Shown here piece after piece: positions 40,503-60,300 of a DNA stretch of 64,000 nucleotides. A program made the translations under genes and the position numbers. The first letter of the stretch is position 1, and each line of letters begins with the position of its first letter. This DNA comes from Meghimatium bilineatum. Its lineage: Eukaryota; Mollusca; Gastropoda; Stylommatophora; Philomycidae. Where the stretch lies: the NCBI GenBank assembly GCA_034231615.1, contig CM067314.1, positions 11,382,890 to 11,446,889 of the forward strand, written 5' to 3'. Below the pieces are notes generated by a model. It saw only the letters and a list, made by a program, of their open reading frames with translations, was not told where the DNA came from and did not search any database.

Positions 40503-40589
40503 GCTGATGCTATATGATATTTGCCAAATGAAAAATTGACCTGAATGATTCATTAATCTTTTGAATTTATCATAATGGCGCGCACATGC

Positions 40590-41374: not shown

Positions 41375-41505
41375 TTAACCTTTACCAAACCAGATTACAA
41401 TTGCACAATCTATCCCCTGCTACCGGATTGTTTTTTGAAAATTTGTAATTTTTGGTGGGTGTTTGGAAAACGAAATAACGTTTACATTATTGGTGTAAGA
41501 AATGA
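41375..41505 (+). mobile_element. piggyBac-type left end only
   Basis: TTAA at 41375 followed by cctttaccaaaccagatt and gctaccggattgttttttg. The first 120 bp match the left ends at 36749 and 59239. No right end is seen, so the copy is truncated. Confidence 0.7.
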
Positions 41506-41866
41506 GAGGCGTAAAGGAATCAAAATATTTATCAACCAACACAGAATCAGAAGAGTCATTACCACTAGCTGAAGGACATACTGAATATGAGATCGGAGCA
41601 CCTATGGACGTGTCCGGAGTGCCATCATGACGATCTAATGTTGAATTAACTAGGATGTCTGGTGTGTTCTTTCACCCATGGACATGATGCAGGCCCCGGT
41701 AGTGACACATGAAGTTGTAGAAAACAAGTGGCATATAGGAATCAAGAGGTTATCCTAACGCAACTGGAACATTTGGTTACTACATGCTGAAGAACATACT
41801 GAGTAAATTATAGTTCCTATAAGATTTGTCCAGAGTACCATGATGAACATCTGGTGACTGATAACC
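41506..41866. other. Intron 1 unassigned
   Basis: Several tgctgaagaacatactgag-like words repeat loosely. No family recognised. Confidence 0.35.
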
Positions 41867-41867
41867 A

Positions 41868-41999
41868 GCAGAAGTTGGATGTGTCAGACCATTGATGCAA
41901 ATACTAGTGCATTTGTATTCTATGGGCTACATCATATGGGCTGGAAATCTAGGAGCATTGTTTTGCAACAGGAGAGATCCATTGGGAGTTTGAAAACAA
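41868..41999 (+). mobile_element. SINE-B, diverged
   Basis: From agcagaagttggatgtgtca to ttgggagtttgaaaac. Confidence 0.75.
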
Positions 42000-42134
42000 A
42001 TTTTTAAAACTATGGAAACCTGATATGTACATAAAAATAAAACATTGGGGAAGTAAACAAGGGTATATACAATTTCTTGTGTTTGTAAAGTTTGCGTAGA
42101 CTTGTAATAATGTTGACCATTTATTTCTCCACAG

Positions 42135-42194
42135 AGTACCATCAGCCGGTCAGTGTTGAGACCACTTGGTAGCTCAGTTGTTGTGAAACAAGAG
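42135..42194 (+). CDS. ATP5MC: ATP5MC exon 2
   Basis: Twenty codons, STISRSVLRPLGSSVVVKQE, a basic presequence stretch with the LRPL element found in homologues. Acceptor tttctccacag, donor gtaact. Phase 0 on both sides. Confidence 0.9.
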
Positions 42195-42256
42195 GTAACT
42201 TATAAGTAATACTGCATAGACTGTTGCCATTTTTTAAAGTCTTTAGTTTTGTGGGT

Positions 42257-42508
42257 GTGTCCGGGTACAGGATGGGTTGCAAAAAATATCGATACTGTTA
42301 CCTACCACATATGCCATAGAAGGTGACTAATGAAGGTTTTGGATGAAGTTGGCTGTCAGGCACCATAAAGCGTCAGTGACCAGAAGCCGTGATGTTAAAT
42401 GCATCCAGCTAAAAGGTGCAGATATCGCTACATGGAAACACAATGACAGAACACGTCATTCTCTGTACTACTTTCTGCTAATCTGAATTGAGAATGAACG
42501 CAGAACAA
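42257..42508 (+). mobile_element. SINE-A, diverged, in intron 2
   Basis: From tgtccgggtacaggatggg to tgagaatgaacgcagaac. Confidence 0.8.
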
Positions 42509-42716
42509 AGATCTTAAGAAAATGTGGACTTGCTAGAAATATAGGCTATTCAAAACTTTCTTATCTAGCTTCTTATTGATTTTGCCAGATTGTTCAAAAC
42601 CTTTTTTTATGTTGATAATAATCTGCGGAATGGGACTTTAAGCATATAGAATGAAATTCATAAATTATAAGGGAAGGCCAGAAAATATTGAAACATTTAT
42701 TTTTCTCATGTAAATA
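42509..42716. other. Intron 2 unassigned, A+T-rich
   Basis: Nothing recognised. Confidence 0.35.
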
Positions 42717-42830
42717 AATATATAAAAAAAATATAAAAATGATTAAATAGCAGTTTTACATGGAACAACATAGAATCGACGTTTCTGCCAAATGGGTATT
42801 TTATCAAGATAGGTACAGTTTAATTTTTTT
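42717..42830 (-). mobile_element. Fragment of foldback/Penelope-like terminal repeat
   Basis: On the minus strand it reads cttgataaaatacccatttg, then gcagaaacgtcgattc. This matches the cttraaaaagg...ggnccgaaacgtcg pattern of the element at 19.1-19.5 kb, followed by A+T-rich sequence. Confidence 0.5.
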
Positions 42831-42930
42831 CTTCTATATTTACTTACCTATTGGCAAAGTTTTACTGCAGTCCTCCATTGACTAATTTTTTGCAGATAAT
42901 AGAGATAGAAACATGACATTGTGCACACTT

Positions 42931-43191
42931 CTTCTGTTTTTATTCTGCAGAACAGCAGGATGTAGTCCGGAGAACGGAATGCGGTGTGGCATGTTTTACA
43001 GCATTGCTGTGATATCTGTGCCTTTCGGCCTGACACATCTGATTTCAGCATGGCTTTGGGTCACTGACCCTATATGGAATGGGACAGCCAACTCCATCCC
43101 ATAATCTCCTTAGTCGCTTCGTACGACATGCATGGAAAGTAAACAGTGTTGCTATTCTTTGCTCCCCTTTTGGGCCGACAACACACGGGCG
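42931..43191 (-). mobile_element. SINE-A with about 11-bp target duplication
   Basis: gtgcacacttc at 42921-42931 recurs at 43192-43202. The tail is shortened and shows ttctgtttttattctgcaga. Confidence 0.85.
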
Positions 43192-43285
43192 GTGCACACT
43201 TCAACTGTTGTGATTATATAGGAAATTACATATCATTCAAACAATTGGTATAGCTGCACTGAGTTGTTATAATGGTACAGCTAAA

Positions 43286-43680
43286 CAACTTATGTTTAAG
43301 CAGCAAATTGTGATAGAATTCTTAGAAACTGTTGTAAATGTTGACACAAATTTGTCTACTGTGTATAGATGTTGTTAAGTCGATAGGAGAGCTGTTAGCA
43401 ACTGGGCTCGGATAATTAAAACTTCAGCAAGCAGAACGATGGAGTTGCATGATCTGCTGTGCTCTAGATGTCCTTCCACAGTGGTGAGACCAGACATACT
43501 GGAGTGTATTGATGTCTGCGTAGAGATAGGCAAATCACTAAAGAACAAATTGTCCTTGTAGCTTTCAATCAGTAAGGAAAGTGTGAATACACGAATACAG
43601 CTGAACTACTCCAAGACAATGGATGTCCTCACGCATGTGAGATAATCATGAAGTTGTGTTTGAATGTTCTCTGATTTTTA
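43286..43680 (+). pseudogene. mariner-type transposase, N-terminal fragment
   Basis: Reads MFKQQIVIEFLETVVNVDT, RCPSTVVRPDILECIDVCV and SISKESVNTRIQLNYSK, partly in shifted frames (RDRQITKEQIVLV in another). This is the double helix-turn-helix DNA-binding region of mariner/SETMAR-like transposases, with the S-G/C-R-PST linker. Frameshifts abound and the catalytic domain is missing. Confidence 0.7.
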
Positions 43681-44555
43681 TCTTCTTTGGTCCACTTAAC
43701 TCACTCAAACCCAATCTATCTTCGATTGATTCATTCCCAATCTGCCAGAGTTGGACATAGTGTTGAATAATTGTTTTTCTTCACTGTTTCCATGTGACCA
43801 GACATGCTAAATTTAGCCCTCACGTGATTAGCAGTAATGATGGCTTCATTCTAGTTTTCCAATCGTTGCAAACAGGTGCGATATATGAACTGTGAAATTT
43901 TGAATATGGCTTTTGAATTTCTTCCGGAATGGACTCGGAGGAATGATGTTGATAGGCAATGTTTTAGATGGAAATATGGAGAAAGAAAATGAATCGGACA
44001 TTGACAGGGATTTAGTTCAGTATTTAGTTGAAAGTAGCGACGATCCGGTAATTTAAGCCTATTTAATGACGTGTGGCCTGCTGCATCCCTCCCAATTACA
44101 ACCACCAGTAATAATTGAGAGCAGTCAACGTTGCTGCTCTATGTCAATATTGATAAATTTCACGAGAAAGAAGGTCCTGCAAATGACATTGATCCAAAAT
44201 TGCTCTGCTTTTGATTAGGCCTAGGCCTGTCTTGCACTATTACATGAGTTGATCTTTGAGGCAGACAAACCAATGTGTATGCTGGTATCAAAATTTTCAG
44301 ATAAACGAGATCCTACATGGAAACCTGTTTCACCAGATAACATCTGTTTCTCCTGCGACCTGAAAATAGCAAGCCGCCAAAAGATCCTCTTTATAAAGTT
44401 TCTGCGCAGCTCACTGGATACCAGAATTGCAATATTGACAATTGATTCTCTATACATAACAAATTAACTGAGAAAACTTTCGATACACTGTCTACATAGC
44501 CACAAAGGAAATTGTGGGTGTTGCTGTTCGCAGACTTGTTTGATGAAAACGATGC
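43681..44555. other. Intron 2 unassigned
   Basis: Frames at 43851-44105 (-) and 44249-44467 (+) are not recognisable. No repeats noted. Confidence 0.35.
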
Positions 44556-44634
44556 ACAAAAAATATGCATGGAAGATAAATGTGGTTGCTATTCTTTGCT
44601 CCCCTTTGTACATTGCAACACACCTGTGGATGCA
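44556..44634 (-). mobile_element. SINE-A head fragment
   Basis: atgcatggaagataaatgtg through tgctattctttgctcccctt and gcaacacacc is the 5' third of SINE-A. Confidence 0.7.
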
Positions 44635-44704
44635 GTACTTTTACTGTATATTATACATGTGGATGCAGTACTTTTACTGGATATTATACATGTGGATGCA
44701 GAAG
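44631..44704 (+). repeat. 33-bp unit, 2.3 copies
   Basis: tgtggatgcagtacttttac plus tgtatattataca repeats directly between two SINE-A fragments of opposite orientation. Confidence 0.85.
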
Positions 44705-44890
44705 AGGTGACCAAGGAGATTTTTGTGATGGAGTTGGCTCACATTCCATAGGTCAAAGTGACCAAAAGACCATGCTGAAGGTGGTTATGTTAAGATAATA
44801 GGCACAAATGTCATAGCCATGCTGTAAACTGACATTCTGCTCTCTGGACTACATTATATTTACCATATGAACTGTGAGAATGCAGAAAAA
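44700..44890 (+). mobile_element. SINE-A, 5'-truncated, diverged
   Basis: From gaggtgaccaaggagattt to gagaatgcagaaaaag. Confidence 0.7.
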
Positions 44891-44947
44891 GATACCATTT
44901 GGTGTGCTCTGTCATGTCATTTAAAGCAAAATATTTGTTTCTTGTAG

Positions 44948-45043
44948 CCAAGCACAACAAATGCAAGCCTATCCAGTTATAGTGGAGTCAATGTTCTTAG
45001 CCTAGTGCCCAAGTCTAGCCAAGTTTCATCTTTGCTGAGCCAG
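44948..45043 (+). CDS. ATP5MC: ATP5MC exon 3
   Basis: Thirty-two codons beginning PSTTNASLSSYSGVNVLSLV and ending SSLLSQ, the variable middle of the presequence. Acceptor tttcttgtag, donor gtgaga. The snoRNA array begins 79 nt downstream. Confidence 0.88.
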
Positions 45044-45122
45044 GTGAGAAGTGTGTGTGGACAATCGTGCATTAGATGCTTGTCTCTGTATGTCCAGTCC
45101 TGGTTTAGTTACCAAATAGAAA

Positions 45123-45207
45123 GCATTGTTTCATATGATGGAAAATAATATCAACATCCAGATTTTCATGATGGCTGCTGTACATGGAACCACTGATGAA
45201 ACAATGC
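45123..45207 (+). ncRNA. C/D-box snoRNA candidate, copy 1
   Basis: The best-folded copy. The 11-nt stem gcattgtttca (45123-45133) pairs perfectly with tgaaacaatgc (45197-45207). Box C ATGATGG is at 45135-45141, an internal ATGATGG (C') follows in the middle, and box D CTGA (45193-45196) is flush with the 3' stem. The segment before box D, ctgtacatggaacca, is the likely guide. Most other copies have tgg instead of tga in the 3' stem, a G-U instead of A-U pair. It starts 79 nt after the 5' splice site. Size and layout match C/D snoRNAs, which animals usually process from introns. Expression is not shown. Confidence 0.72.
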
Positions 45208-46474
45208 ATTTTTATGTTAATTTTGTGGGACACCAAACTGCAAAGTTCAGATAAAACTGTATAGTTCAAAAGTTATTTTAATTACTAAAACTGAGTTCAG
45301 AAGTAAGCCTATCATGTAGTTGACAATTTTCATAGTTAGTAAATGAGTTAACAATTCTCATGGTGAGAAATTAACCTTATGGACCTCAATGTGTCTGGAA
45401 ACGGCAAAAATGTTATGTTACCAGGGCTCGTCTGCATCTCCAGTCACCTTCTGTTTGTATGCCCCGATTTCTCACTACGAAATCACACGAGTTAATCTCA
45501 CATGCCATAGAATTCCCATCACACGAAGCTAGGAATACGTCACAGTCTAAAGGTAGTATTCCTTTGCACATTACGAATGTAAGAAGGAGAATGCCGGCAG
45601 ATTTATTCACAGAAAGTCTAGAGCGAATTATGTTAATTTTCAACTCCATATTTTACTATAAAATGTGGTGACGTGTGGCATGGTAAGTGCTCGTCATGGG
45701 AAGCAATATCTGTATGTTTTAGTTGCTTTTGTGTTTGGTGTGTTATAAGAATGTTTGTTTATTCTTTGAATAACACAAAAACAATATTTATCAGGGGTGC
45801 CAAGTGTCAGCATGGAAAATAATTACATTGTATGTCGGTCGGCATAGTGTTGAACGGATGGACATTGTATGTAATTTCTTCATGTTTTGTTCAGTACATA
45901 TTATATTAGTTTGGATATGAAACAACATATATACAACAGGAATAGGTAGTTAGGAGGATATTTGTCAGTGTTATGGTATCAAACTAGAGTTTTTTTAAAT
46001 CTTTATAGTTCAGAAATTAAGTATTGTTATTTTCAAGTAAAACTGTCACTTAAAGTTGTATCATTTAGTTCACAATTCTCATATTCAGCAATATAGTTCA
46101 CAATTTGTGTAGTTAGCAAATTAATTCATTCTCAGCAAATTAGCTTACAATTTTCATAGTTAACAGATTTCACATTCTTAGCAAATTAGTTCTGATAGTT
46201 AGCAGATTTTTCACATTATCTGTTAGCAAATTAGCTCCTAATTCAAATTATAGCTAACAATGTAAATTGGTCAGTTATTGTAATTACCAAAAATTGAGTT
46301 CAGAAGTAAGCCCTATCATTTAGTTGACAATTCTCATAGCAATTTAGTACACAATTCTCGTAGTTACCAAACTCACAATTCTCCTAGTTTGTTAGTTGAA
46401 ATTTCACAGTTAGCAAATTAGTTAACATTTTCAACAAATTAGTTCTCATTTCTTATTTTAGTTTACTAAATGAT

Positions 46475-46555
46475 ATTGTTTCATATGATGGAATATTATA
46501 TCAACATCCAGATTTTCATGATGGCTGCTGTACATGGAACCACTGATGGAACAAT
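46475..46555 (+). ncRNA. C/D-box snoRNA candidate, copy 2
   Basis: 9-bp stem attgtttca/tggaacaat, box C ATGATGG, box D CTGA, guide region unchanged. The D' side reads ggaatattatatcaac. Confidence 0.68.
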
Positions 46556-46843
46556 GAACATTTTTATGTTAACTTTGTGGGACACCAAACTATAAAGTTC
46601 AGATAAAACTGTATAGTTCAGAAGTTGGTTAATTATTTTAATTACTTAAACTCAGTTCAGATGTAAGCCTTATATAGTTCACAATTTGCATAATAAATGA
46701 GTTCACAGTTCTCATTGTGAGCAGTTTAGTGCATAATTCTCGTAGTTAACCAAATTCGCTCACAATTCTCATAGTTAGCAGCTTATTTCATATTCTCACT
46801 TAGCAAATTAGTCTCCAATTCTCTTGTTAGTTTACTAAATGAT

Positions 46844-46924
46844 ATTGTTTCATATGATGGAAAATTATATCAACATCCAGATTTTCATGATGGCTGCTGT
46901 ACATGGAACCACTGATGGAACAAT
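46844..46924 (+). ncRNA. C/D-box snoRNA candidate, copy 3
   Basis: Consensus copy: intact 9-bp stem, boxes C, C', D and guide. Confidence 0.68.
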
Positions 46925-47144
46925 GAACATTTTTGTTATATTTGTGGGGTTATTATACCAAGTTATAAAATTCAGAAAAATTGTATAGTTCAGAAATTGG
47001 TCAATTATTGTAATTGCTAAAAATTGAGTTCAGAAGTAAGCCCTATCATGTAGTTCACAATTCTCATAGTTAGCAATTTAGTACACAATTCTCGTAGTTA
47101 CCAAACTCACAATTCTATAGTTTGTAAGTTGTTGAAATTTCTCA

Positions 47145-47873
47145 AATAGTAAAGCAACATTAATTAAACAGATTACTAAAAACACTTACCTTGCCTATGA
47201 ATAAAAATATATAAAAAGTATATATAAAAAACAGACAATAAAACTAAACAGGACAATTCTCCACGTATCGGCTCAAATGGAACCTTTTTCAAGAGACAAA
47301 CAACAGTAAACAAAATAATAAACAAAATAGATCACTTAGATTTCATAAAGCCATGTCTCCACGACGCTGGAATGAAATCGCATCCAGTAAAAGAGAAAAT
47401 GCGTGCATTTATTATAAACAAACTGGAAAGTGGGGAAACTAGAGGCAATATAGAAGTGGTTGGGGTGTTTATAATGAATGCAAGAATAATATAAGAAAAA
47501 GACCCCTTTTGTCACTTTATCAGACAGGCAGGTTTTAAGAACATAGTCAAACAGGCAAGCCTGAAGGGAACAGAGACAGATGGGGACAACGTGAGAAAAT
47601 ATTAGTTTGACAACCTAGCTAGGCATGGAAACAACGATCCTGTTAACAATACTGTGGACAGAGAGCCATGGTCGCCTACGCAGACCAGAATGGCATATGA
47701 TAATTATTGATGAGTAATGATGAGGTTGTGTGGTGGTGGAGTGAGTTGGTTTGGGGAAGGAAGGATACAAGAAGAATCATCATTTGAAAACGCATGGAAT
47801 GAATGTGAAACCAAATATAGACATAAACATATATATATATATACAACCACACCTAAACATACATATAAATGTA
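47145..47873 (-). mobile_element. Penelope-like/foldback-type insertion, copy 1, 12-bp target duplication
   Basis: 729 bp inserted between two copies of tgaaatttctca (47133-47144, 47874-47885). Duplicated units without the element keep this site uninterrupted (about 55050). On the minus strand its 3' part reads ctcttgaaaaaggttccatt, then gagccgatacgtggagaatt and gtcctgttta. The same arrangement occurs in the 58.9-60.2 kb element. A (TA)n run lies near 47830. Coding content is not recognised. Confidence 0.65.
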
Positions 47874-47951
47874 TGAAATTTCTCAGTTAGCAAATTAGTT
47901 AACATTTTCAAAAAATTAGTTCTCATTTCTTATTTTAGTTTACTAAATGAT

Positions 47952-48032
47952 ATTGTTTCATATGATGGAAAATTATATCAACATCCAGACTTTCATGATG
48001 GCTGCTGTACATGGAACCACTGATGGAACAAA
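47952..48032 (+). ncRNA. C/D-box snoRNA candidate, copy 4
   Basis: Boxes and guide intact. The 3' stem tggaacaaa loses the outermost pair. catccagac replaces catccagat. Confidence 0.66.
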
Positions 48033-48360
48033 GCATTTTTGTCAATTTTGTGGTGTCAGTTATACCAAGCTACAAAGTTCAGAAAAAATTATATGAGTCA
48101 GGGACTGGTTAATGTAGTTTGACTTAGTAAAACTGTCAGTCAGAAGTGAGTCCCTATCACACAGTTCACAATTCTCAGTTAGCAATATAGTTCAAAATTT
48201 ATATAGTTAGCACATTAATTTATTCTCAGCAAATTAGCTCACAATTTTCATAGTTATCCGATTTCACATTCTTAGAAAATTAGTTGTCATAGTTAGTAAA
48301 TTTTTCACATTCTCAGTTAGCAAATTAACTCCCAATTCATATTATAGTTAACTATGTGAT

Positions 48361-48441
48361 ATTGTTTCATATGATGGAAAATTATATCAACATCCAGATT
48401 TTCATGATGGCTGCTGTACATGGAACCACTGATTGAACAAT
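48361..48441 (+). ncRNA. C/D-box snoRNA candidate, copy 5
   Basis: The 3' stem is ttgaacaat, which puts a mismatch one pair from box D. Boxes and guide intact. Confidence 0.6.
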
Positions 48442-48723
48442 GAATATTTTTATGTTAAATTTTGCGGGACACCAAACTATAGAGTTCAGATAAAACTGTC
48501 TAGTTCAGAAGTTGGTTAATTATTTTAAATACTTAAACTGAGTTCAGAAGTAAGCCTTATAATATAGTTCGCAATTTGCTTAGTAAATGAATTCACAGTT
48601 CTCATTGTGAGTAGTTTAGTGCAAAATTCTCGTAGTTACCAAATTTGCTCATAGTTAGCAGCTTATTTCATATTCTCACTTAGCAAATTAGTCTCCAATT
48701 TTCTTGTTAGTTAACTAAATGAT

Positions 48724-48804
48724 ATTGTTTCATATGATGGAAAATTATATCAACATACAGATTTTCATGATGGCTGCTGTACATGGAACCACTGATGGAA
48801 CAAA
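48724..48804 (+). ncRNA. C/D-box snoRNA candidate, copy 6
   Basis: Boxes and D guide intact. The D' side reads caacatacag. Confidence 0.65.
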
Positions 48805-49140
48805 GCATTTTTGTGTTAATTTTGTGGGGTCATTATACCAAGCTACAAAGATCAGAAAAATTAAATAACTCATTTGGTTATTGGAGATTTGTTAATGTAG
48901 TTTGACTAGTAAAACTGTCAGTCAGAAGTAAGCCCCCTATCACACATTTCACAATTCTCATAGTTAGCAAGTAGTTCACAATTGTCAGTTAACAAGTAGT
49001 TCACAATTGTCATAGTTAGCAAGTAATTCCACAATTCTCATAGTTAGCAATATAGTTCAAAATTTTGTATAGTTGGCAAATTAATTCATTCTCAGTTGGC
49101 AAATTTCACATTCTTAGCAAATTAGCTCACAAAATGTGAT

Positions 49141-49221
49141 ATTGTTTCATATGATGGAAAATGATATCAACATCCAGATTTTCATGATGGCTGCTGTACA
49201 TGGAACCACTGATTGAACAAT
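49141..49221 (+). ncRNA. C/D-box snoRNA candidate, copy 7
   Basis: 3' stem ttgaacaat (one mismatch). The D' side reads aaatgatatcaac. D guide intact. Confidence 0.6.
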
Positions 49222-49450
49222 GAACATTTTTATGTTAACTTTGTGGGATACCAAACTGTAAAGTTCAGATAAAACTTTATAGTTCAGAAGTTGGTTAATT
49301 ATTTTAATTACTTAAACTGAGTTCAGAAGTAAGCCTTATCATATAGTTCACAATTTTCATAGTTACCAAAATCGCTCACAATTCTCATAGTTAGCAGTGT
49401 ATTTCATATTCTCAACAGTTTCCAATTCTCTTGTTAGTTAACTAAATGAC

Positions 49451-49531
49451 ATTGTTTCATATGATGGAAAATAATATTATCATCCAGATTTTCATGATGG
49501 CTGCTGTACATGGAACCACTGATGGAACAAA
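49451..49531 (+). ncRNA. C/D-box snoRNA candidate, copy 8
   Basis: Boxes and D guide intact. The D' guide is altered to ataatattatcatcc, showing that this side is freer to change. Confidence 0.63.
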
Positions 49532-49858
49532 GCATTTTTGTGTTAATTTTGCGGGGTTATTATACCAAGTTATAAAATTCAGAAAAATTGTATAGTTCAG
49601 AAATTGGTCAATTATTGTAATTGCTAAAAATTGAGTTCAGAAGTAAGCCCTATCATGTAGTTGACAATTCTCATAGTTAGCAATTTAGCTCAAAATTTGT
49701 ATAGTTAGAACATTAATTTATTCTCAGCAAATTAGCTCACAATTTTCATAGTTATCCGATTTCACATTCTTAGAAAATTAGTTATCATAGTTAGTAAATT
49801 TTTCACTTTCGCAGTTAGCAAATTAACTCCCAATTCAAATTATAGTTAACTATGTGAT

Positions 49859-49939
49859 ATTGTTTCATATGATGGAAAATTATATCAACATCCAGATTTT
49901 CATGATGGCTGCTGTACATGGAACCACTGATTGAACAAT
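49859..49939 (+). ncRNA. C/D-box snoRNA candidate, copy 9
   Basis: 3' stem mismatch (ttgaacaat). Marks the left edge of the first 1788-bp duplicated block. Confidence 0.6.
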
Positions 49940-50155
49940 GAATATTTTTATGTTAAATTGTGGGGTCGTTATACCAAGTTATAAAAATTCAGAAAAATTG
50001 TTCAGAAATTGGTCAATTATTGTAATTGCTAAAAATTGAGTTCAGAAGTAAGTCCTATCATGTAGTTCACAATTCTCATAATTAGCAATTTAGTACACAA
50101 TTCTCGTAGTTACCAAACTCACAATTTTATAGTTTGTAAGTTGTTGAGATTTCTC

Positions 50156-50865
50156 AAATAGTAAAGCAAAATTAATTAAACAGGTTACTAAAAAACTTAC
50201 CTTGCCTATGAATAAAAAATATTTAAAAAAACATACAATAAAACTAAACAGGACAATTCTCCACGTATCGGCTCTTTCAAGAGACGAACAACAGTAAACA
50301 AAATAGATCACTTAGATTTCATAAAGCCAATGTCTCCACGACGCTGGAATGAAAACGCATCCAGTAAAAGAGAAAATGCGTGCATTCGTTATAAACAAAC
50401 TGGAAAGTGGGGAAACTAGAGGCAATATAGACGTGGTTGGGGTGTTTATAATGAATGCAAGAATAATATAAGAAAAAGACCCTTTTTGTCACTTTATCAG
50501 ACAGGCAGGTTTTAAGAACATAGTTAAACAGGCAAGCCTGAAGGGAACAGAGACAGATGGGGACAACGTGAGAAAATATTAGTTTGACAACCTAGCTAGG
50601 CATGGAAACAACGATCCTGATAACAATACTGTGGACAGAAAGCCATGGTCGCCTACGCAGACCAGAATGGCATATGATAATTATTGATGAGTAATGATGA
50701 GGTTGTGTGGTGGTGGAGTGAGTTGGTTTGGGGAAGGAAGGGTACAAGAAGAATCATCATTTGAAAACGCATGGAATGAATGTGAAACCAAATATAGACA
50801 TAAACATATATATATATATACAACCACACCTAAACATACATATAAATGTATGAAATTTCTCAGTT
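50156..50865 (-). mobile_element. Same insertion, duplicated copy 2
   Basis: About 95% like copy 1 by eye, with a shortened stretch around the gatacgtgg motif (atggaaccttt missing). It shares the same flanks, so it was copied with its surroundings rather than inserted anew. Confidence 0.7.
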
Positions 50866-50928
50866 AGCAAATTAGTTAACATTTTCAAAAAATTAGTTCT
50901 CATTTCTTATTTTAGTTTACTAAATGAT

Positions 50929-51009
50929 ATTGTTTCATATGATGGAAAATTATATCAACATCCAGACTTTCATGATGGATCCTGTACATGGAACCACTGA
51001 TGGAACAAA
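50929..51009 (+). ncRNA. C/D-box snoRNA candidate, copy 10
   Basis: gatggatcctgtacatgg replaces gatggctgctgtacatgg, changing the start of the guide. The part next to box D is intact. Confidence 0.58.
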
Positions 51010-51336
51010 GAATTTTGGCAATTTTGTGGTGTCAGTTATACCAAGCTACAAAGTTCAGAAAATATTATATGAGTCAGGGACTGGTTAATGTAGTTTGACT
51101 TAGTAAAACTGTCAGTCAGAAGTGAGTCCCTATCACACAGTTCACAATTCTCAGTTAGCAATATAGTTCAAAATTTATATAGTTAGCACATTAATTTATT
51201 CTCAGCAAATTAGCTCACAATTTTCATAGTTATCCGATTTCACATTCTTAGAAAATTAGTTGTCATAGTTAGTAAATTTTTCACATTCTCAGTTAGCAAA
51301 TTAACTCCCAATTCAAATTATAGTTAACTATGTGAT

Positions 51337-51417
51337 ATTGTTTCATATGATGGAAAATTATATCAACATCCAGATTTTCATGATGGCTGCTGTACATGGA
51401 ACCACTGATTGAACAAT
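51337..51417 (+). ncRNA. C/D-box snoRNA candidate, copy 11
   Basis: Boxes and guide intact. 3' stem ttgaacaat. Confidence 0.6.
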
Positions 51418-51646
51418 GAATATTTTTATGTTAAATTTTGCGGGACACCAAACTATAGAGTTCAGTTAAAACTGTCTAGTTCAGAAGTTGGTTAATTATT
51501 TTAATTACTTAAACTGAGTTCAAAAGTAAGCCTTATCATATAGTTCACAATTTTCATAGTTACCAAAATCGCTCACAATTCTCATAGTTAGCAGTGTATT
51601 TCATATTCTCAACAGTTCCAATTCTCTTTTTAGTTTACTAAATGAT

Positions 51647-51727
51647 ATTGTTTCATATGATGGAAAATTATATCAACATCCAGATTTTCATGATGGCTGC
51701 TGTACATGGAACCACTGATTGAACAAT
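51647..51727 (+). ncRNA. C/D-box snoRNA candidate, copy 12
   Basis: Identical to copy 9, exactly 1788 bp away. Confidence 0.6.
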
Positions 51728-51943
51728 GAATATTTTTATGTTAAATTGTGGGGTCGTTATACCAAGTTATAAAAATTCAGAAAAATTGTTCAGAAATTGG
51801 TCAATTATTGTAATTGCTAAAAATTGAGTTCAGAAGTAAGTCCTATCATGTAGTTCACAATTCTCATAATTAGCAATTTAGTACACAATTCTCGTAGTTA
51901 CCAAACTCACAATTTTATAGTTTGTAAGTTGTTGAGATTTCTC

Positions 51944-52653
51944 AAATAGTAAAGCAAAATTAATTAAACAGGTTACTAAAAAACTTACCTTGCCTATGAA
52001 TAAAAAATATTTAAAAAAACATACAATAAAACTAAACAGGACAATTCTCCACGTATCGGCTCTTTCAAGAGACGAACAACAGTAAACAAAATAGATCACT
52101 TAGATTTCATAAAGCCAATGTCTCCACGACGCTGGAATGAAAACGCATCCAGTAAAAGAGAAAATGCGTGCATTCGTTATAAACAAACTGGAAAGTGGGG
52201 AAACTAGAGGCAATATAGACGTGGTTGGGGTGTTTATAATGAATGCAAGAATAATATAAGAAAAAGACCCTTTTTGTCACTTTATCAGACAGGCAGGTTT
52301 TAAGAACATAGTTAAACAGGCAAGCCTGAAGGGAACAGAGACAGATGGGGACAACGTGAGAAAATATTAGTTTGACAACCTAGCTAGGCATGGAAACAAC
52401 GATCCTGATAACAATACTGTGGACAGAAAGCCATGGTCGCCTACGCAGACCAGAATGGCATATGATAATTATTGATGAGTAATGATGAGGTTGTGTGGTG
52501 GTGGAGTGAGTTGGTTTGGGGAAGGAAGGGTACAAGAAGAATCATCATTTGAAAACGCATGGAATGAATGTGAAACCAAATATAGACATAAACATATATA
52601 TATATATACAACCACACCTAAACATACATATAAATGTATGAAATTTCTCAGTT
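51944..52653 (-). mobile_element. Same insertion, duplicated copy 3
   Basis: Exactly 1788 bp from copy 2 and apparently identical to it. Confidence 0.75.
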
Positions 52654-52716
52654 AGCAAATTAGTTAACATTTTCAAAAAATTAGTTCTCATTTCTTATTT
52701 TAGTTTACTAAATGAT

Positions 52717-52797
52717 ATTGTTTCATATGATGGAAAATTATATCAACATCCAGACTTTCATGATGGATCCTGTACATGGAACCACTGATGGAACAAA
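52717..52797 (+). ncRNA. C/D-box snoRNA candidate, copy 13
   Basis: Identical to copy 10, including the ggatcctg change, 1788 bp away. Confidence 0.58.
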
Positions 52798-53124
52798 GAA
52801 TTTTGGCAATTTTGTGGTGTCAGTTATACCAAGCTACAAAGTTCAGAAAATATTATATGAGTCAGGGACTGGTTAATGTAGTTTGACTTAGTAAAACTGT
52901 CAGTCAGAAGTGAGTCCCTATCACACAGTTCACAATTCTCAGTTAGCAATATAGTTCAAAATTTATATAGTTAGCACATTAATTTATTCTCAGCAAATTA
53001 GCTCACAATTTTCATAGTTATCCGATTTCACATTCTTAGAAAATTAGTTGTCATAGTTAGTAAATTTTTCACATTCTCAGTTAGCAAATTAACTCCCAAT
53101 TCAAATTATAGTTAACTATGTGAT

Positions 53125-53205
53125 ATTGTTTCATATGATGGAAAATTATATCAACATCCAGATTTTCATGATGGCTGCTGTACATGGAACCACTGATTGA
53201 ACAAT
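53125..53205 (+). ncRNA. C/D-box snoRNA candidate, copy 14
   Basis: Same as copy 11, 1788 bp away. Confidence 0.6.
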
Positions 53206-53434
53206 GAATATTTTTATGTTAAATTTTGCGGGACACCAAACTATAGAGTTCAGTTAAAACTGTCTAGTTCAGAAGTTGGTTAATTATTTTAATTACTTAA
53301 ACTGAGTTCAAAAGTAAGCCTTATCATATAGTTCACAATTTTCATAGTTACCAAAATCGCTCACAATTCTCATAGTTAGCAGTGTATTTCATATTCTCAA
53401 CAGTTCCAATTCTCTTTTTAGTTTACTAAATGAT

Positions 53435-53515
53435 ATTGTTTCATATGATGGAAAATTATATCATCATCCAGATTTTCATGATGGCTGCTGTACATGGAAC
53501 CACTGATGGAACAAA
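53435..53515 (+). ncRNA. C/D-box snoRNA candidate, copy 15
   Basis: At the right end of the second 1788-bp block. The D' side reads tatcatcatcc, the 3' stem tggaacaaa. A piggyBac-type insertion lies 317 bp downstream. Confidence 0.63.
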
Positions 53516-53831
53516 GCATTTTTGTGTTAATTTTGCGGGGTTATTATACAATGTTCAGAAAAATCCTATAACATTTGGTTATTGGAGATTGGTTAATGTA
53601 GTGTGACTTCATAAAACTGTCCGAAGTAAGCCCCTATCACAAAGTTCACAATTCTCATAGTTAGCAAGTAGTTCACAATTCTTATAGTTAGCAAATAGTT
53701 CACAATTTGTATAATTTAGTTTATAATTTTTATAGATTAGCCAATTGCTTCACAGGTCTAGTGGCCAATTAGTCCACAATTTTCATAATAAATAGTATAT
53801 TATTTAGTATCCGGTAAAATGTATAGAATTC

Positions 53832-54757
53832 TTAACCTTTAAAGCCCTGAATTAAAATTATGCAAAATACCCCCTGGGTCTGAATTATTTTTTGGTTAAT
53901 TCACGTTATTGATGGTGAGTGTTATGAAAACGTGATAACTTTTTTGATATAAAAGATATCAAAATAATTTTTTAACATCTAAATAAAGGAGTGAATAGTG
54001 AATATAATCATGTTTTTGTTGTATGTGTGATATAACAGTTATGAGGAAGTTGTGAAGTTGAAAATTCGAGAGAAAAAATCGAAACGCGTCATTTCCAAAA
54101 ATCGCAATATAACTTCTTGACGACCCTAATACTTGAGCAATGTGTGGAAACATTGATAAAATCCTCATAAATACCTATACTTATTGTATATATATTGTTT
54201 TATATCAAAACTAATATAATATTAACTAAAAAACTAATAAAACGTGAAGAAATTGCATATAACGTCCGTCCGGTCAACACTAGGCCTAGGCAAACATGCA
54301 GCGTAATTATTGTCTTTGGACACACGTGGCATCCCTGATACATATTATTTTTGTGTTTCTGAACGAGTACACAAACATTCCTATCAAATAACAACATATT
54401 AAACACAAAAAACAACAATTAAAACATGTAGTCACGATCACTTAGCCATGCCACGCGGTACTCTTTTTGATAGTAAAATATGGCCCGAAAATGCCCAGCG
54501 TCGATCTAGAAATTCGGTGACAAAATCAGCCGGTTTTCTCTCTTCTTGCAATCATAATGTGTAAAGGAATTTGACCGTTAAACTGTGACGTTTTCCTAGC
54601 TTCGTTTGGCGGGTTTTATACGTCACATGATCATTACTTCGTGAAGTTCAGTACTCGGGAATCGGGCAATATCGTATGTAACCGATTTGCGCCAATAGGC
54701 ACAATGGGGTATATACTCATTGGCACAAATCGGCGCCTATAGAGACCTAAAGGTTAA
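53832..54757. mobile_element. Non-autonomous piggyBac-type element, 926 bp, exact TTAA
   Basis: Starts TTAACCTTTAAAGCCC and ends CCTAAAGGTTAA. Sister repeat units at about 55610 and 56466 read gaattcttaaataggaaat, the empty site with one TTAA. So both ends and the target duplication are proven within the window. Interior subterminal sequence (gatggtgagtgttatgaaaa) matches the 59.24-kb element. No transposase. Confidence 0.92.
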
Positions 54758-54766
54758 ATAGGAAAT

Positions 54767-54845
54767 ATTATTTCATATGATGAAAGATTATCAACATCCA
54801 GACTTTCATGATGGCTGCTGTACATGGAACCACTGATGGAACAAA
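54767..54845 (+). ncRNA. C/D-box snoRNA candidate, copy 16
   Basis: Box C is ATGATGA, the canonical RUGAUGA form. The D' side is two bases shorter (gattatcaacatcc). The 5' stem attatttca has one change. It follows the piggyBac insertion by 9 bp. Confidence 0.65.
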
Positions 54846-55125
54846 GAATTTTTATGTTAGTTTTGTGGGATCTACTTTATAATCAAGTTATAAATTACAG
54901 AAAAAATGTTCAGAAATTGGTCAATTATTGTAATTACTAAAACTGAGTTCAGAAGTAAGCCTTATCGTGTAGTTGACAATTCTCAGAGCTAACAATTTAG
55001 TACACAATTCTCGTAGTTACCAAACTCACAATTCTCCTAGTTTGTAAGTTGTTGAAATTTCTCCTAGTTAGCAAATTAGTTAACATTTTCAACAAATTAG
55101 TTTTTGTTTTAGTTAACTAAATGAT

Positions 55126-55206
55126 ATTGTTTCATATGATGGAAAATTATATCAACATCCAGACTTTCATGATGGCTGCTGTACATGGAACCACTGATGG
55201 AACAAA
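55126..55206 (+). ncRNA. C/D-box snoRNA candidate, copy 17
   Basis: Standard copy with box C ATGATGG and 3' stem tggaacaaa. Confidence 0.65.
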
Positions 55207-55622
55207 GCATTTTTGTTAATTTTGTGTGGTTGTTATACAATGTTCAGAAAAATCCTATAACTCATTTGGTTATTGGAGATTGGTTAATGTAGTGTGACTT
55301 CATAAAACTGTCAGAAGTAAGCCCCTATCACAAAGTTCACAATTCTCATAGTTAGCAAGTAGTTCCACAATTCTCATAGTTGGCAAGTAGTTCCACAATT
55401 CTTATAGTTAGCAAGTAGTTCCACAATTCTCATAGTTGGCAAGTAGTTCACCACAATTCTTATAGTTAGCAAATAGTTCATAATTTGTATAATTTAGTTC
55501 ACAATTCTTATAGATTAGCCAATTGCTTCACAGGTCTAGTGGCCAATTAGTCCACAATTTTCATAATAAATAGTATATTATTTAGTATGCGGTAAAATGT
55601 ATAGAATTCTTAAATAGGAAAT

Positions 55623-55701
55623 ATTGTTTCATATGATGAAAGATTATCAACATCCAGACTTTCATGATGGCTGCTGTACATGGAACCACTGATGGAACAA
55701 A
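55623..55701 (+). ncRNA. C/D-box snoRNA candidate, copy 18
   Basis: Canonical box C ATGATGA. 856 bp from copy 16 and nearly identical to it, but with the intact attgtttca stem. Confidence 0.67.
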
Positions 55702-55981
55702 GAATTTTTATGTTAGTTTTGTGGGATCTACTTTATAATCAAGTTATAAATTACAGAAAAAATGTTCAGAAATTGGTCAATTATTGTAATTACTAAAACT
55801 GAGTTCAGAAGTAAGCCTTATCGTGTAGTTGACAATTCTCAGAGCTAACAATTTAGTACACAATTCTCGTAGTTACCAAACTCACAATTCTCCTAGTTTG
55901 TAAGTTGTTGAAATTTCTCCTAGTTAGCAAATTAGTTAACATTTTCAACAAATTAGTTTTTGTTTTAGTTAACTAAATGAT

Positions 55982-56062
55982 ATTGTTTCATATGATGGAA
56001 AATTATATCAACATCCAGACTTTCATGATGGCTGCTGTACATGGAACCACTGATGGAACAAA
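55982..56062 (+). ncRNA. C/D-box snoRNA candidate, copy 19
   Basis: 856-bp duplicate of copy 17. Confidence 0.65.
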
Positions 56063-56478
56063 GCATTTTTGTTAATTTTGTGTGGTTGTTATACAATGTT
56101 CAGAAAAATCCTATAACTCATTTGGTTATTGGAGATTGGTTAATGTAGTGTGACTTCATAAAACTGTCCGAAGTAAGCCCCTATCACAAAGTTCACAATT
56201 CTCATAGTTAGCAAGTAGTTCCACAATTCTCATAGTTGGCAAGTAGTTCCACAATTCTTATAGTTAGCAAGTAGTTCCACAATTCTCATAGTTGGCAAGT
56301 AGTTCACCACAATTCTTATAGTTAGCAAATAGTTCATAATTTGTATAATTTAGTTCACAATTCTTATAGATTAGCCAATTGCTTCACAGGTCTAGTGGCC
56401 AATTAGTCCACAATTTTCATAATAAATAGTATATTATTTAGTATGCGGTAAAATGTATAGAATTCTTAAATAGGAAAT

Positions 56479-56558
56479 ATTGTTTCATATGATGAAAGAT
56501 TATCAATATCCAGACTTTCATGATGGCTGCTGTTACATGGAACCACTGATGGAACAAA
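56479..56558 (+). ncRNA. C/D-box snoRNA candidate, copy 20
   Basis: Canonical box C ATGATGA. One extra t in the guide (gctgttacatgg). It lies 113 nt before exon 4, near the usual distance of an intronic snoRNA from its 3' splice site. Confidence 0.62.
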
Positions 56559-56671
56559 TGTTATTTTACAATATTCTCAGGTACACACGTTGAGTGAGGT
56601 TATCTGATACTTCATTGCTTTGTGCGGTATATTATTTCATAACTGGGTTATATTTCATGTTCTCCCAACAG

Positions 56672-56768
56672 ATTCGAACCTTCCAAACTAGTACTGTTAA
56701 ACAAGACATTGATCAGGCTGCAAAGTACATCGGAGCAGGAGCTGCTACTGTTGGTGTTGCTGGCTCAG
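56672..56768 (+). CDS. ATP5MC: ATP5MC exon 4
   Basis: Codes for [20 protein letters not shown] and [12 protein letters not shown] plus the first base of a Gly codon: the cleavage region and the start of membrane helix 1. Acceptor tctcccaacag, donor gtatga (phase 1). Confidence 0.95.
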
Positions 56769-56806
56769 GTATGAACTTGTGTACAAATGTGTGTCTTGTA
56801 ACCGTA

Positions 56807-57045
56807 TGTTGTGGTGGTCTGAAAGGGGAGCAAAGAATTATGATGCTCTTATCTACCTAGCATAAGATGTGATTGAGGAGGCTTTTGGGGTGGGGGTTGG
56901 CTGTCCCATCCAGTAAAGGACAAAGTGACCATGCTGAAGTTGGATGTGTCTGGTTGAAAGATGCAGATATTGTGGCTAAGCTGTAAATCATGACACGATG
57001 CAATACGTTGTCTAGTCTACATTCTGAAAATCTATAGTTTGAATC
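56807..57045 (+). mobile_element. SINE-A, diverged, in intron 4
   Basis: Starts at tgttgtggtggtctgaaagg. The tail is lost near tagtttgaatcaattg. It lies 38 nt after the donor of exon 4. Confidence 0.75.
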
Positions 57046-57055
57046 AATTGTTATT

Positions 57056-57272
57056 TGAGCCAGCAAAGGATAGCAACGGTGATATGCCATGCATACATGT
57101 GGAGATGACTAAGAAGATTTTAGGATTTACACTCCACAGATCAGTGATCCAAAAAAAAGTAAGATTTGGCAGGCAAAAATCTCACAACAAAACCAAGCTG
57201 TAACCTCATGACAATACAAACTGTTCTCCTGACAACTTCAACCTAATCAGTAGGAGTTTGATAGTGAATGAA
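57056..57272 (+). mobile_element. SINE-A, very old copy
   Basis: agccagcaaaggatagcaac through ctaatcagtaggagtttgat. Directly follows the previous copy. Confidence 0.6.
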
Positions 57273-57461
57273 AAAGAAAATTATGTTCCTGGAAGATGAG
57301 TTGAAGTCTTGGTGCAAGTGGGTACTTGTGGTGACCAAGGTTGGTGACTGCTAGAGAAGTAAACTTTATCAAATCCGTTCCAAAATGTTATGCTAGACAT
57401 GCTGAAATTAGATTTGTAGTTTGAAGTGTGCAGATATTGCAGCTTTAAACTATATATGGGG

Positions 57462-57535
57462 GTTGTGATAGCGTAGTGTGATAAGTCATTCGTGTGCTGA
57501 CCAGCAGATCCAGGTTTCAAGTTTCCACTTTGTTA
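57462..57535 (+). mobile_element. tRNA-like SINE head
   Basis: gttgtgatagcgtagtgtga (A-box-like) is followed by ccaggtttcaagtttcc (B-box-like) at tRNA spacing. Decayed. The body is not delimited. Confidence 0.4.
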
Positions 57536-57539
57536 CTCA

Positions 57540-58679
57540 TGGTTTGAAATAAAATTGACTCCTGTGGTTCATCCAGTCACCAGGAAATAGGGTACCAATG
57601 GGGTGAAAAGGGAATGCATTGTTCTAGGCGGACCCAGGGTTAGCAGATAACCAAGATCCCAAATGTACCTCCATGCGGTGCAACCTGGAAACAGAAATAC
57701 AGCAGTTCGATCTGGTTCTGGCCACATCATTTGGGGATCGTGTCCGAGAATGTGGAGGTAGCAGATGGAAAGAGATTTGACTGCATAAAAGACAGACATC
57801 TCCGACACTATTTGCATCACCACGTACAGTGACACTATAGACAGACAGTGACGCTGAACATTATAGGGACGGCCAATGTAAAAGGTACGTGGAGATTTAT
57901 GGCATGTCGAGAGACTAATAGATGTCATACCGAGTACAATGACAAAATGAAAGGCAGAACAGCACCAGAGGGCAGCACGAACTGCAAATAGAAAGGAAAA
58001 AGTTCCTAGGAAAGGGGAACTACAAGCTCTGTTAGCTGAGACGAGCTTCTAGTTATCTGTGCTCCTTATAGGTAGAGACCACTAGGGACCAAACCCGAAA
58101 TAAAGGAATGACGAAAATGGATGTGCTGGACCTCGGACGTCCTGACCACAAGTGGCCAACCGGTTGCAAATAATCACAGTTCTACTGTGGAACTTGCAGC
58201 ACAACATACTTCACGCTCCCCGGCGGAAATCACACGAAATATTTGTTGTGGTTATTTGAGAGTGAACGCAGAAGGGTACCAGTGCTCTGGAAAGGTTGAG
58301 GAATGGTGCCATCATTACTTAGAAAGTGCTGTAGGCACCACTAGTCTGGCAGTTTTTGGCCAACCACTGACTAGCCCTTTGAGCACTTATGGGAATCTGT
58401 GTTCATAGTTCATAACTTCTATTACCTCTACAGTTAGAACTTGCTACCATAATAAGTTTGAAAACATGCAGAAGATATGCAAGGCCAAAATGTGCATGTA
58501 AAATGGTATATCTATTTCCTGTTCCCTGTGGAACATAGGGCTGCAATTGTAGCTACAACATCTGTTCTGCAGTCTTCTTTAACTGTGCCCACAAGTTTGG
58601 TATCTTCCTCTGCTATTCTCTAGGTATGTTTTCCTACTAATATTTCCATGGGTTCCAGTGAAGAACATGTCTGGCTTCT
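57540..58679. other. Intron 4 unassigned
   Basis: Frames of 119 codons (57569-57928, -) and 95 codons (58121-58408, +) are not recognisable. A SINE tail stub gagagtgaacgcagaag lies at 58258-58274. Confidence 0.35.
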
Positions 58680-58827
58680 AGACAGCTATTGACATTAATT
58701 TAAAACAATGGCAAAATGTTGTTGATGTAATTAATGCACAGCTTTGATTATTAGTGTAGTTATCATCACAGCTTTTTAAAACTTCTGTTGATCTTGAGCC
58801 AGTCTTCCTGTTACTGTCATGTTCAGG
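58680..58827 (-). pseudogene. LINE C-terminus, distal part
   Basis: On the minus strand, after the insertion at 58841, a DHLNMTVTGRLAQD-like stretch follows. It continues the segment at 60193-60300, so one LINE end was split by a foldback element. Confidence 0.5.
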
Positions 58828-58840
58828 TGGTCTTTGATAT

Positions 58841-60179
58841 AAATAACCAAATGGTCGGAGGGTGTCCGACAAAGTGGAGGGTGCCGCAGTAACCGAACGA
58901 ACAAATGGTAAAGCAAAATTAATTAAACTGGTTACTAGAAAAACTTACCATACCTAGGAATAAAAATATATAAAAAAGTAAATAAAAAACATACAATAAA
59001 ACTAAATAGTACAATTCTTAGTCATTCTCTTTTACTGGATGCGTTTCCACAACTGTTACCGGGTCACGTAACTATCACGTATAGTTAATTCACTCATCTA
59101 TTTTGTGTATTATTGTTTAGTTTATAAGTTAGTCTCTTGAAAAAGGTCCCATTTGGATAGACACTTTGAGAATTGTCCTATTTCGTTTTATTGTATGTTT
59201 TTTATTTACTTTTGTATATATTTTTATTCCTAGGTACGTTAACCTTTAGCAAGCCAGATTAAAAAATACGAAACGTATCCCTGCCACCGGATTCTTTTTT
59301 GAAAATTTGCATTATTGATGGTGACTGTTTTGAAAATGTGATAATTTTTTGGTTGTTAGAGATATTTAAATAATATTTGCACATATAAATAAAGAATTGA
59401 ATTATGCATATATTGGTGTAATTTATGTACGTGTGTGTGTGTGATACCAGACGTATGAGAAAGTGGTAAAGACGTTTTTCACAAAAAACATATATTTTAT
59501 AACAAATAAAGAGGAAAAAAATAAGAAAAAAAATAACTTACCTTACATATCGAATTCCTTGGCAACACTGTCAACTAAATCACGTAAATCTGTTGTATTT
59601 ATGTTCTTTCACTGCGAAATTATCAAAATATAGCCGGGGGAACTGTATAAAACATGTAGATTTGCAGTAAAATCGTTCTTTGAGCTTAGGCCTAGAGTTA
59701 TTTTTTCTGCCACTTCAAAATATTCGATATCAAACGTACAAGTCCCCAAACCAGCACGGCATTCTGTATATTCACTGCTGTGAAACTAAATAACCTAATA
59801 ATCCATGATTTAATCCACGATTCAATGTTATTTTATTCGAAATACGATGAAATAAAGGTCTGTAAAACCGATCCATCATCATGGCATCGTACCGGTGTAC
59901 AGATGTGGTCAGATTAATTGCTCTTAAACTTTTACGAATAGCCAGCCATTCTCAAAAACGATCATGTCGGAAGTGGGGGATGTACCGGCTTCGATTGCGC
60001 ATGTCCCCAGCTATGTGCACGAACTGTGGTACGTGTAAATCTCACGATAATCTCGCTGGGAGGGACGGCCCGCCATCAGCGCGCGCAGCCATTTTGTTTT
60101 TCGGCGGCTGGATATCATATCGGCTCGGTGAAGGTTAAGTTCTTCTAGTAACCAGTTTAATTTATTTTGCTTTACCATT
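58841..60179. mobile_element. Foldback/Penelope-like element with 13-bp target duplication
   Basis: tggtctttgatat flanks it exactly at 58828-58840 and 60180-60192. It has inverted arms: 58903-59018 pairs with 59169-59238 plus 60139-60179. The right arm was later interrupted by a piggyBac-type insertion. The centre carries ctcttttactggatgcg and cttgaaaaaggtcccatttg, shared with the intron 3 insertions. Confidence 0.75.
59239..60138. mobile_element. Non-autonomous piggyBac-type element, 900 bp
   Basis: Bounded by TTAA (59239-59242, 60135-60138). Ends ttaacctttagcaagcc and, complement, ttaaccttcaccgagcc. Left and right subterminal parts (accggcttcgattgcgcatg) match the 36.75-kb element. The opposite foldback arm shows the uninterrupted site (with g for the first t of TTAA). 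No transposase frame. Confidence 0.9.
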
Positions 60180-60192
60180 TGGTCTTTGATAT

Positions 60193-60300
60193 CTTGTGTC
60201 CATCTTCTTGGTATGCCTCTTGTTCCCTGGTATCCCCTTCATTATGGTCATCTCTAGGTTGTCATGGCGTTTGATATGCCTAGAAGACTAGGTAGTACTG
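60193..60300 (-). pseudogene. LINE C-terminus, proximal part
   Basis: The minus strand reads HIKRHDNLEMTIMKGIPGNK and then a RWTQDIKD-like stretch across a frame break. It is separated from its continuation (58680-58827) by the foldback element. Confidence 0.6.

Follow-up and report, generated by a model that had tools for sequence, protein, structure and literature searches.

The 64-kb window, the whole stretch of DNA analysed here, contains on its plus strand a gene coding for the c-subunit of ATP synthase (ATP5MC), whose nearest relatives among named proteins are those of land snails and slugs. Part of the presequence (PSTTNASLSSYSGVNVLSLVPKSSQVSSLLSQ) is encoded by an upstream exon at positions 44948 to 45043, which was recognized from its translation and from an alignment with gastropod ATP5MC presequences. 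A downstream exon was identified by tblastn and translation at 56672 to 56769, and tblastn located a further exon at 62730 to 62861, the ends of which are approximate. The upstream and downstream exons enclose a phase 0 intron of 11,628 nt (45044 to 56671), which starts with GTGAGA and ends with AACAG, and the ATP5MC reading frame fits both of its borders (CAG/GTGAGA at 45043/45044 and AACAG/ATT at 56671/56672).

Confined to this single intron is an array of box C/D snoRNA-like blocks. A search of the 64-kb window with a 42-nt core, in which up to 14 mismatches were allowed, returned 20 blocks on the plus strand and none on the minus strand. Fourteen of these also match an Rfam family at E<=1, namely block 1 (45125 to 45205), block 2 (46475 to 46555), block 3 (46844 to 46924), block 4 (47952 to 48032), block 6 (48724 to 48804), block 8 (49451 to 49531), block 10 (50929 to 51009), block 13 (52717 to 52797), block 15 (53435 to 53515), block 16 (54767 to 54845), block 17 (55126 to 55206), block 18 (55623 to 55701), block 19 (55982 to 56062) and block 20 (56479 to 56558), the last of which has a 1-nt insertion in the guide-side arm. 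No Rfam match at E<=1 was obtained for block 5 (48361 to 48441), block 7 (49141 to 49221), block 9 (49859 to 49939), block 11 (51337 to 51417), block 12 (51647 to 51727) and block 14 (53125 to 53205), all of which carry the 3' stem arm TTGAACAAT. The array spans positions 45125 to 56558, with block 1 lying 81 nt from the 5' splice site and block 20 lying 113 nt from the intron end. Short tandem repeats are present in many of the spacers.

A box C of the RUGAUGA type is found near the 5' end of all 20 blocks (ATGATGG in 17 and ATGATGA in three), and a box D (CTGA) near the 3' end of each. Every block also contains an internal C' box (ATGATGG), a degenerate D' box (CAGA), the sequence TACATGGAACCA and the same 12-nt guide, while 13 distinct block sequences can be told apart among the 20. 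A preliminary description of this DNA had proposed an array of twenty sense-strand C/D-box blocks within one ATP5MC intron, with box C ATGATGG or ATGATGA, an internal ATGATGG and box D CTGA, and the blocks, their boxes and the exon frames on either side agree with this in every copy. The start of the array at 45123 given there differs from ours in that it includes two extra stem pairs of block 1, and the block length of 79-85 nt has to be corrected to 79-81 nt.

A terminal duplex, which would join boxes C and D into the kink-turn typical of box C/D snoRNAs, is predicted for all 20 blocks. With 11 pairs and -15.0 kcal/mol it is strong in block 1, it is moderate in 18 blocks (-5.2 to -8.3 kcal/mol) and poor in block 16 (-1.3 kcal/mol). 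The 3' stem arm reads TGGAACAAA in 11 blocks, TTGAACAAT in six, TGGAACAAT in two and TGAAACAAT in one, so that the two versions thought earlier to account for the whole array apply to only three of the 20 blocks.

The best Rfam match of the blocks is SNORD42 (RF00150), which is the only family detected at E<=1 between positions 45000 and 56700; all 14 matches are on the plus strand and lie inside blocks. The scores are low, as the best block, block 1, reaches 36.7 bits and the gathering score of the family is 39 bits, and no match was obtained in gathering mode. A 601-nt stretch gave a best E of 0.0024. The neighbouring 13.9 kb (38500 to 45043 and 56672 to 64000) gave no Rfam match at E<=0.5, and a gathering-mode scan of the rest of the window gave none either. 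SNORD42 is the best family, and not SNORD59, which the preliminary description had mentioned for another ATP synthase gene. Viral contigs contained no match to a SNORD42-like DNA pattern or to an 18S pattern. The blocks share with SNORD42 an identical guide/box D core, GGAACCACUGA, and the box C context AUAUGAUGGAA. They differ from it in their scores below the gathering level, in a guide with a 4-nt insertion and a mismatched position, and in the degenerate D' box CAGA. The genomic setting also differs: human SNORD42 is hosted by RPL23A, whereas the array blocks are hosted by ATP5MC, with 20 copies within one intron.

SNORD42A has been reported as the guide for methylation of 18S U116 (PMC10932220). 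When the guide of the array blocks was placed on a foreign eukaryotic 18S rRNA, in which the corresponding base is likewise numbered 116, the fifth guide base upstream of box D was found to face U116, as in SNORD42. The duplex at this site consists of seven contiguous pairs (positions 1-7) followed by a mismatch at position 8, whereas the Rfam consensus forms nine pairs with the same 18S. A guide duplex of at least nine pairs is expected of SNORD42. Among shuffled guides, 96 of 300 reached a duplex of at least seven somewhere in the 937 nt of 18S covered, and an alternative site at position 834 would allow a duplex of eight with one G-U pair. The comparison covered only these 937 nt of the foreign 18S. 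One might speculate that the snoRNA no longer targets U116 but has drifted to a different RNA, since conservation extends to the entire stretch upstream of box D and not only to the seven bases that pair with U116. In favour of this, the 19 columns of the D-guide region hold just two changes, and contiguous pairing at U116 is limited to its last seven bases. However, the blocks retain the SNORD42 core GGAACCACUGA unchanged and in register for U116, and three pieces of the guide have exact complements in the window only on the opposite strand of the blocks, and we regard such a drift as improbable. The D' side was also considered as a second guide and rejected; its 17 sites show 10 changes, and the best duplex that it forms with 18S has seven pairs, one of them G-U, at position 843.

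The blocks change about four times more slowly than their spacers. Compared with the right flank, in 19 copies, we counted 22 changes in 81 block sites versus 271 changes in 209 flank sites (0.27 versus 1.30 per site), and compared with the left flank, in 16 copies, 17 changes in 81 block sites versus 69 in 77 flank sites (0.21 versus 0.90 per site). The last 39 sites of the right flank align poorly (97 changes), and leaving them out gives 174 changes in 170 sites, or 1.02 per site. When sites were reshuffled, none of 100,000 permutations was as extreme for either flank; this procedure permutes sites and not lineages, and the copies are not independent of each other. In pairwise comparisons of blocks and flanks, 277 of 380 passed a homology filter, and among the 150 with a flank divergence of 20-36% the mean divergence was 4.4% for the blocks versus 25.0% for the flanks. 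The better conservation of blocks that the preliminary description had noted holds between copies and on both sides. The order is reversed in the 14 comparisons with a flank divergence below 1%, where blocks diverge more (0.8%) than flanks (0.2%), which counts against a SNORD42-type array under selection. No substitutions were found in box D, C', D' and the 12-nt guide; the variable sites lie on the D' side, in the loop and in the stem, and the boxes and guide are the most constant parts.

Judged from the sequence, these results make it probable that the ATP5MC intron contains a divergent SNORD42-type box C/D snoRNA, which has been tandemly amplified and most copies of which are still under selection. 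This reading has to be weighed against a snoRNA-derived satellite, which the preliminary description had named beside an unusual dosage device. In such a satellite a single functional copy, probably block 1, would have been passively amplified, the others being inert or mostly redundant and kept similar by short gene conversion. Block 1 has both the top SNORD42 score and the fullest stem, which is stronger than those of the other 19 copies (-1.3 to -8.3 kcal/mol), and the 3' stem arm of these 19 differs from that of block 1; the stem difference counts against a SNORD42-type array, and so may gene conversion between blocks. The tandem repeats in the spacers and the duplication of large units as a whole (100% and 99.77% identity) would also suit a satellite, as would the gradual fading of conservation, which does not stop at the block ends but tapers over about 10 nt (six changes in the first 10 outside sites on the right and four on the left). 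On the other hand, blocks as constrained as these are not what an inert satellite would lead one to expect. Their divergence remains at about 4% even where the flanks differ by 25%, and gene conversion is not expected to track boxes and guide, which are constant, while sparing D'-side, loop and stem sites, which vary. We therefore consider the satellite explanation unlikely, albeit less so than a drift of the guide.

The array also contains higher-order units. A 1,788-nt unit on the plus strand with blocks 9-11 (49859 to 51646) is followed by an exact duplicate with blocks 12-14 (51647 to 53434), which is 100% identical, and an 856-nt unit with blocks 16-17 (54767 to 55622) by a unit with blocks 18-19 (55623 to 56478), which is 99.77% identical and differs by two mismatches. 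Part of the copy number is so recent in origin that an assembly duplicate may account for it, and unresolved repeats or haplotypes might have inflated the array, which would be compatible with any of the other readings. The mismatch-free repetition of 1,788 nt with three blocks and the near-identity of the 856-nt pair are in line with this. Because of the exact repeat, 17 copies are regarded as secure, pending read support for the duplicate. These 17 blocks are left after its removal, and a divergence of at least 10% is seen in 241 of the 277 flank comparisons that passed the homology filter, so that a partly artefactual copy number appears possible but doubtful.

If the blocks are a SNORD42-type array, the snoRNA would descend from, or be equal to, SNORD42, and the array would have expanded as units of one to three blocks underwent unequal tandem duplication, with the latest step being very recent. 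The copies would be transcribed together with the ATP5MC pre-mRNA, fold via the terminal stem and the C/D kink-turn, and be bound by the core C/D proteins fibrillarin, NOP56, NOP58 and 15.5K. Following splicing they could be released by trimming, and possibly also by internal cuts, to direct 2'-O-methylation of 18S U116. Selection may act on several copies because their combined output counts, or because it is useful to have a range of interchangeable ones. A separate mini-intron for each snoRNA was rejected for now. Each of the 19 blocks with a further block downstream is followed, at a distance of 98-124 nt, by a donor-like GTRAGY, for which shuffled spacers give a rate of 1.6% per 30 nt, but as the units are homologous, the 19 occurrences represent one event. 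Acceptor-like sites average 7.0 pyrimidines in 14 positions; shuffled spacers give 7.6, and three acceptors of the host gene give 10.

Animal introns normally hold one C/D snoRNA each. The SNORD115/116 and SNORD113/114 families of eutherian imprinted loci are large tandem C/D snoRNA families, which the ATP5MC array resembles; their host genes are non-coding and carry them in repeated introns, and their guides are orphan (PMC11028025). The array, in contrast, occupies a single intron of a housekeeping gene that codes for a protein and has an rRNA-type guide, and judged from the DNA sequence the copies do not each appear to have a repeated intron of their own. Where a human C/D snoRNA family has several members in the same host gene, the copies have been attributed to recombination within that gene, and they lie in different introns and not in one (PMC8178906). 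Among the titles and abstract openings of the literature matches listed, which covered only part of the subscription literature, an array of the same snoRNA of this size in one intron was unreported. If the array is constrained, it would exemplify selection for the dosage of an rRNA-type guide in an animal that is not a mammal and at a locus that is not imprinted. With twenty such copies, an animal intron would either have to be cut internally or give rise to a new kind of linked snoRNP RNA. For sno-lncRNAs and intronic clusters, two snoRNAs in one intron have been described, and protection of the ends by snoRNPs can preserve a long stretch of the intron (PMC11028025, PMC4234469). The ATP5MC intron likewise holds more than one snoRNA, but here there are twenty copies of the same one. 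There is a slim chance that the 11.6-kb intron survives after its excision as an RNA with many snoRNPs, in which trimming from both ends stops at blocks 1 and 20 and up to 20 C/D RNPs stay linked on one strand. Such an RNA might either yield single snoRNAs via internal cuts or act as a nucleolar scaffold, and would represent a poly-snoRNP form of the two-ended sno-lncRNAs.

Scanning both strands recovered the block core 20 times on the plus strand and not once on the minus strand. With limits set by the nine-base stems, the copies run from block 1 (45125-45205, plus strand) to block 20 (56479-56558, plus strand), are 79-81 nt long and are separated by spacers of 229 to 1,269 nt. They fill 1,615 nt of an intron of 11,628 nt, which opens with GTGAGA at 45044, closes with AACAG at 56671 on the plus strand and joins its exons in phase 0; 81 nt of intron precede block 1, and 113 nt follow block 20. 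The surrounding exons encode the ATP5MC presequence and the beginning of the mature c-subunit. Twenty sense-strand copies in one ATP5MC intron, as given in the preliminary description, are thus present; of its block length of 79-85 nt, the lower bound stands and the upper does not. With 107 residues of the host protein, drawn from three exons, as query, the top hit among the best 120 of 3,976 matches was a metagenome protein (88%). Then came two named genera, the land snail Candidula at 86% and the slug Arion at 86-87% (83-86% identity in a multiple alignment), with Lymnaea, Aplysia and the aligned insects ranking behind these two. By itself, this one short protein points to a gastropod source, probably a land snail or slug.

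Rfam in gathering mode gave no match within the window. In E-value mode, SNORD42 (RF00150) was the top match for the two blocks in 46400-47000, one scoring 32.7 bits (E=0.0024) and the other 28.7 bits, and across 45000-56700 no other family reached E<=1. Each of its 14 matches in that interval is on the plus strand and falls within a block, which agrees with the initial assignment to C/D snoRNAs; in the 13.9 kb flanking both sides of the array, no Rfam match was found at E<=0.5. Block 1 had the highest RF00150 score, 36.7 bits, where the gathering score is 39. The 3' arm TTGAACAAT is found in all the blocks without a match (5, 7, 9, 11, 12 and 14) and in no other block. As RF00150 is the best match and no block attains the gathering score, the blocks are best described as SNORD42-like by sequence and layout, yet below the formal Rfam cut-off.

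The 20 copies comprise 13 distinct sequences and differ little from the spacers in G+C content (0.34 vs 0.31). The blocks had been described as more conserved than the spacers, and this was borne out on both sides when the flanks were limited to homologous ones and each tree drew on block and flank together: on the right (19 copies, without block 20) the block has 22 changes in 81 sites vs 271 in 209 for the flank, and on the left (16 copies, without blocks 1, 16, 18 and 20) 17 in 81 vs 69 in 77. The final 39 right-flank sites, with 97 changes, are apparently misaligned; minus these, the right flank has 174 changes in 170 sites and changes roughly 3.8 times as fast as the block. When the tree was computed from flanking stretches of 60 and 170 nt, not all of them homologous, the 20 blocks have 23 changes in 81 sites and the flanks 140 in 56 and 254 in 161. 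The homology filter was passed by 277 of 380 pairwise flank comparisons, in which the flank is more diverged than the block in 263, equally in 6 and less in 8; in the 14 comparisons with flanks less than 1% diverged, blocks differ by 0.8% and flanks by 0.2%. These data come from one genome, where selection and conversion look alike, and the permutation of block against flank shuffled sites, not lineages, among copies that are related to one another.

No substitution was found in box D, C', D' or the last 12 guide bases, and the one substitution in box C, G to A, is towards the consensus. The D' side has 10 changes in 17 sites and the 3' stem 6 in 9; block 20 carries a 1-nt insertion directly before the 12-nt guide. 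This pattern of change matches the parts of a C/D RNA. We consider it probable, judging from sequence, that the array represents a SNORD42-type C/D snoRNA that was tandemly amplified and of which several copies are selected. A snoRNA amplified passively, with most copies inert or redundant, seems an unlikely alternative, and it gains from the block edges, at which conservation fades over about 10 nt instead of stopping (the 10 sites nearest the block carry 6 changes on the right and 4 on the left); this makes selection on several copies somewhat less likely and passive amplification somewhat more.

Since block 1 has the fullest predicted stem (11 pairs, -15.0 kcal/mol) as well as the best family score, we infer that it is likely the ancestral form. 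The higher-order units 49859-51646 and 51647-53434 are identical (0 mismatches in 1,788 nt), and those at 54767-55622 and 55623-56478 show 2 differences in 856 nt. The exact repeat may be an assembly duplicate, and without it 17 blocks are left. Three spacers contain an insertion of about 700 nt (47143-47880, 50130-50850 and 51920-52640, limits by eye). Related pieces, oppositely oriented, lie near 58900-59020 and 59100-59240, so the insertion is apparently a fragment of a mobile element that was copied with the array duplications. Spacer 1 (at 45463-45972) and spacer 15 (at 54149-54666) each hold one arm of an inverted repeat, about 520 nt long and 73% identical between the arms. A donor-like GTRAGY hexamer lies 98-124 nt after all 19 blocks that precede another block (blocks 1-19; 45205-56479), and the acceptors near these hexamers are weak.

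The target was assessed on 937 nt of a eukaryotic 18S from another organism, carried by contig L001, which is listed under a bacterial MAG but matches RF01960 with 784 bits. On this 18S, U116 lies opposite the guide base five positions upstream of box D; U116 is the 18S position that SNORD42A is reported to guide (PMC10932220). The duplex has seven contiguous pairs with the eighth mismatched, compared with nine for the Rfam consensus on the same 18S; 96 of 300 shuffled guides attain seven pairs somewhere in the 937 nt, and an alternative site at position 834 offers eight pairs including one G-U. Support for U116 as the putative target is therefore drawn from SNORD42 similarity and register, not from duplex length.

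Most likely, the copies would be made from the ATP5MC transcript and would act as ordinary C/D guide RNPs. End-trimming alone would leave inner copies unreleased. Two snoRNAs sharing one intron can give rise to sno-lncRNAs (PMC11028025, PMC4234469), and by analogy the excised intron might persist as a poly-snoRNP RNA with up to twenty linked C/D RNPs, a bold reading to which we give little credence. Tandem C/D families (SNORD113-116) and intronic snoRNA clusters (PMC11028025) are already known. Human C/D copies within one host gene are placed in different introns (PMC8178906), whereas the ATP5MC array occupies one. Among the records listed by a limited search of the open-access literature, none describes 17-20 copies of a single guide of rRNA type arrayed within one intron of a protein-coding gene.

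Elsewhere in the window, the minus strand carries a transposase fragment at 37643-38467 (Pfam DDE_Tnp_1_7, E=4.7e-35), which we take to be piggyBac-type, and an RNase H-like fragment at 15666-16241 (E=7.9e-06), probably from a retroelement. Long tandem arrays are found at 2477-3433 (64 nt x 15), at 14386-15406 (14 nt x 73, unit TGTCCGCATAATGA) and at 16376-17308 (18/12-nt, ATG-rich).
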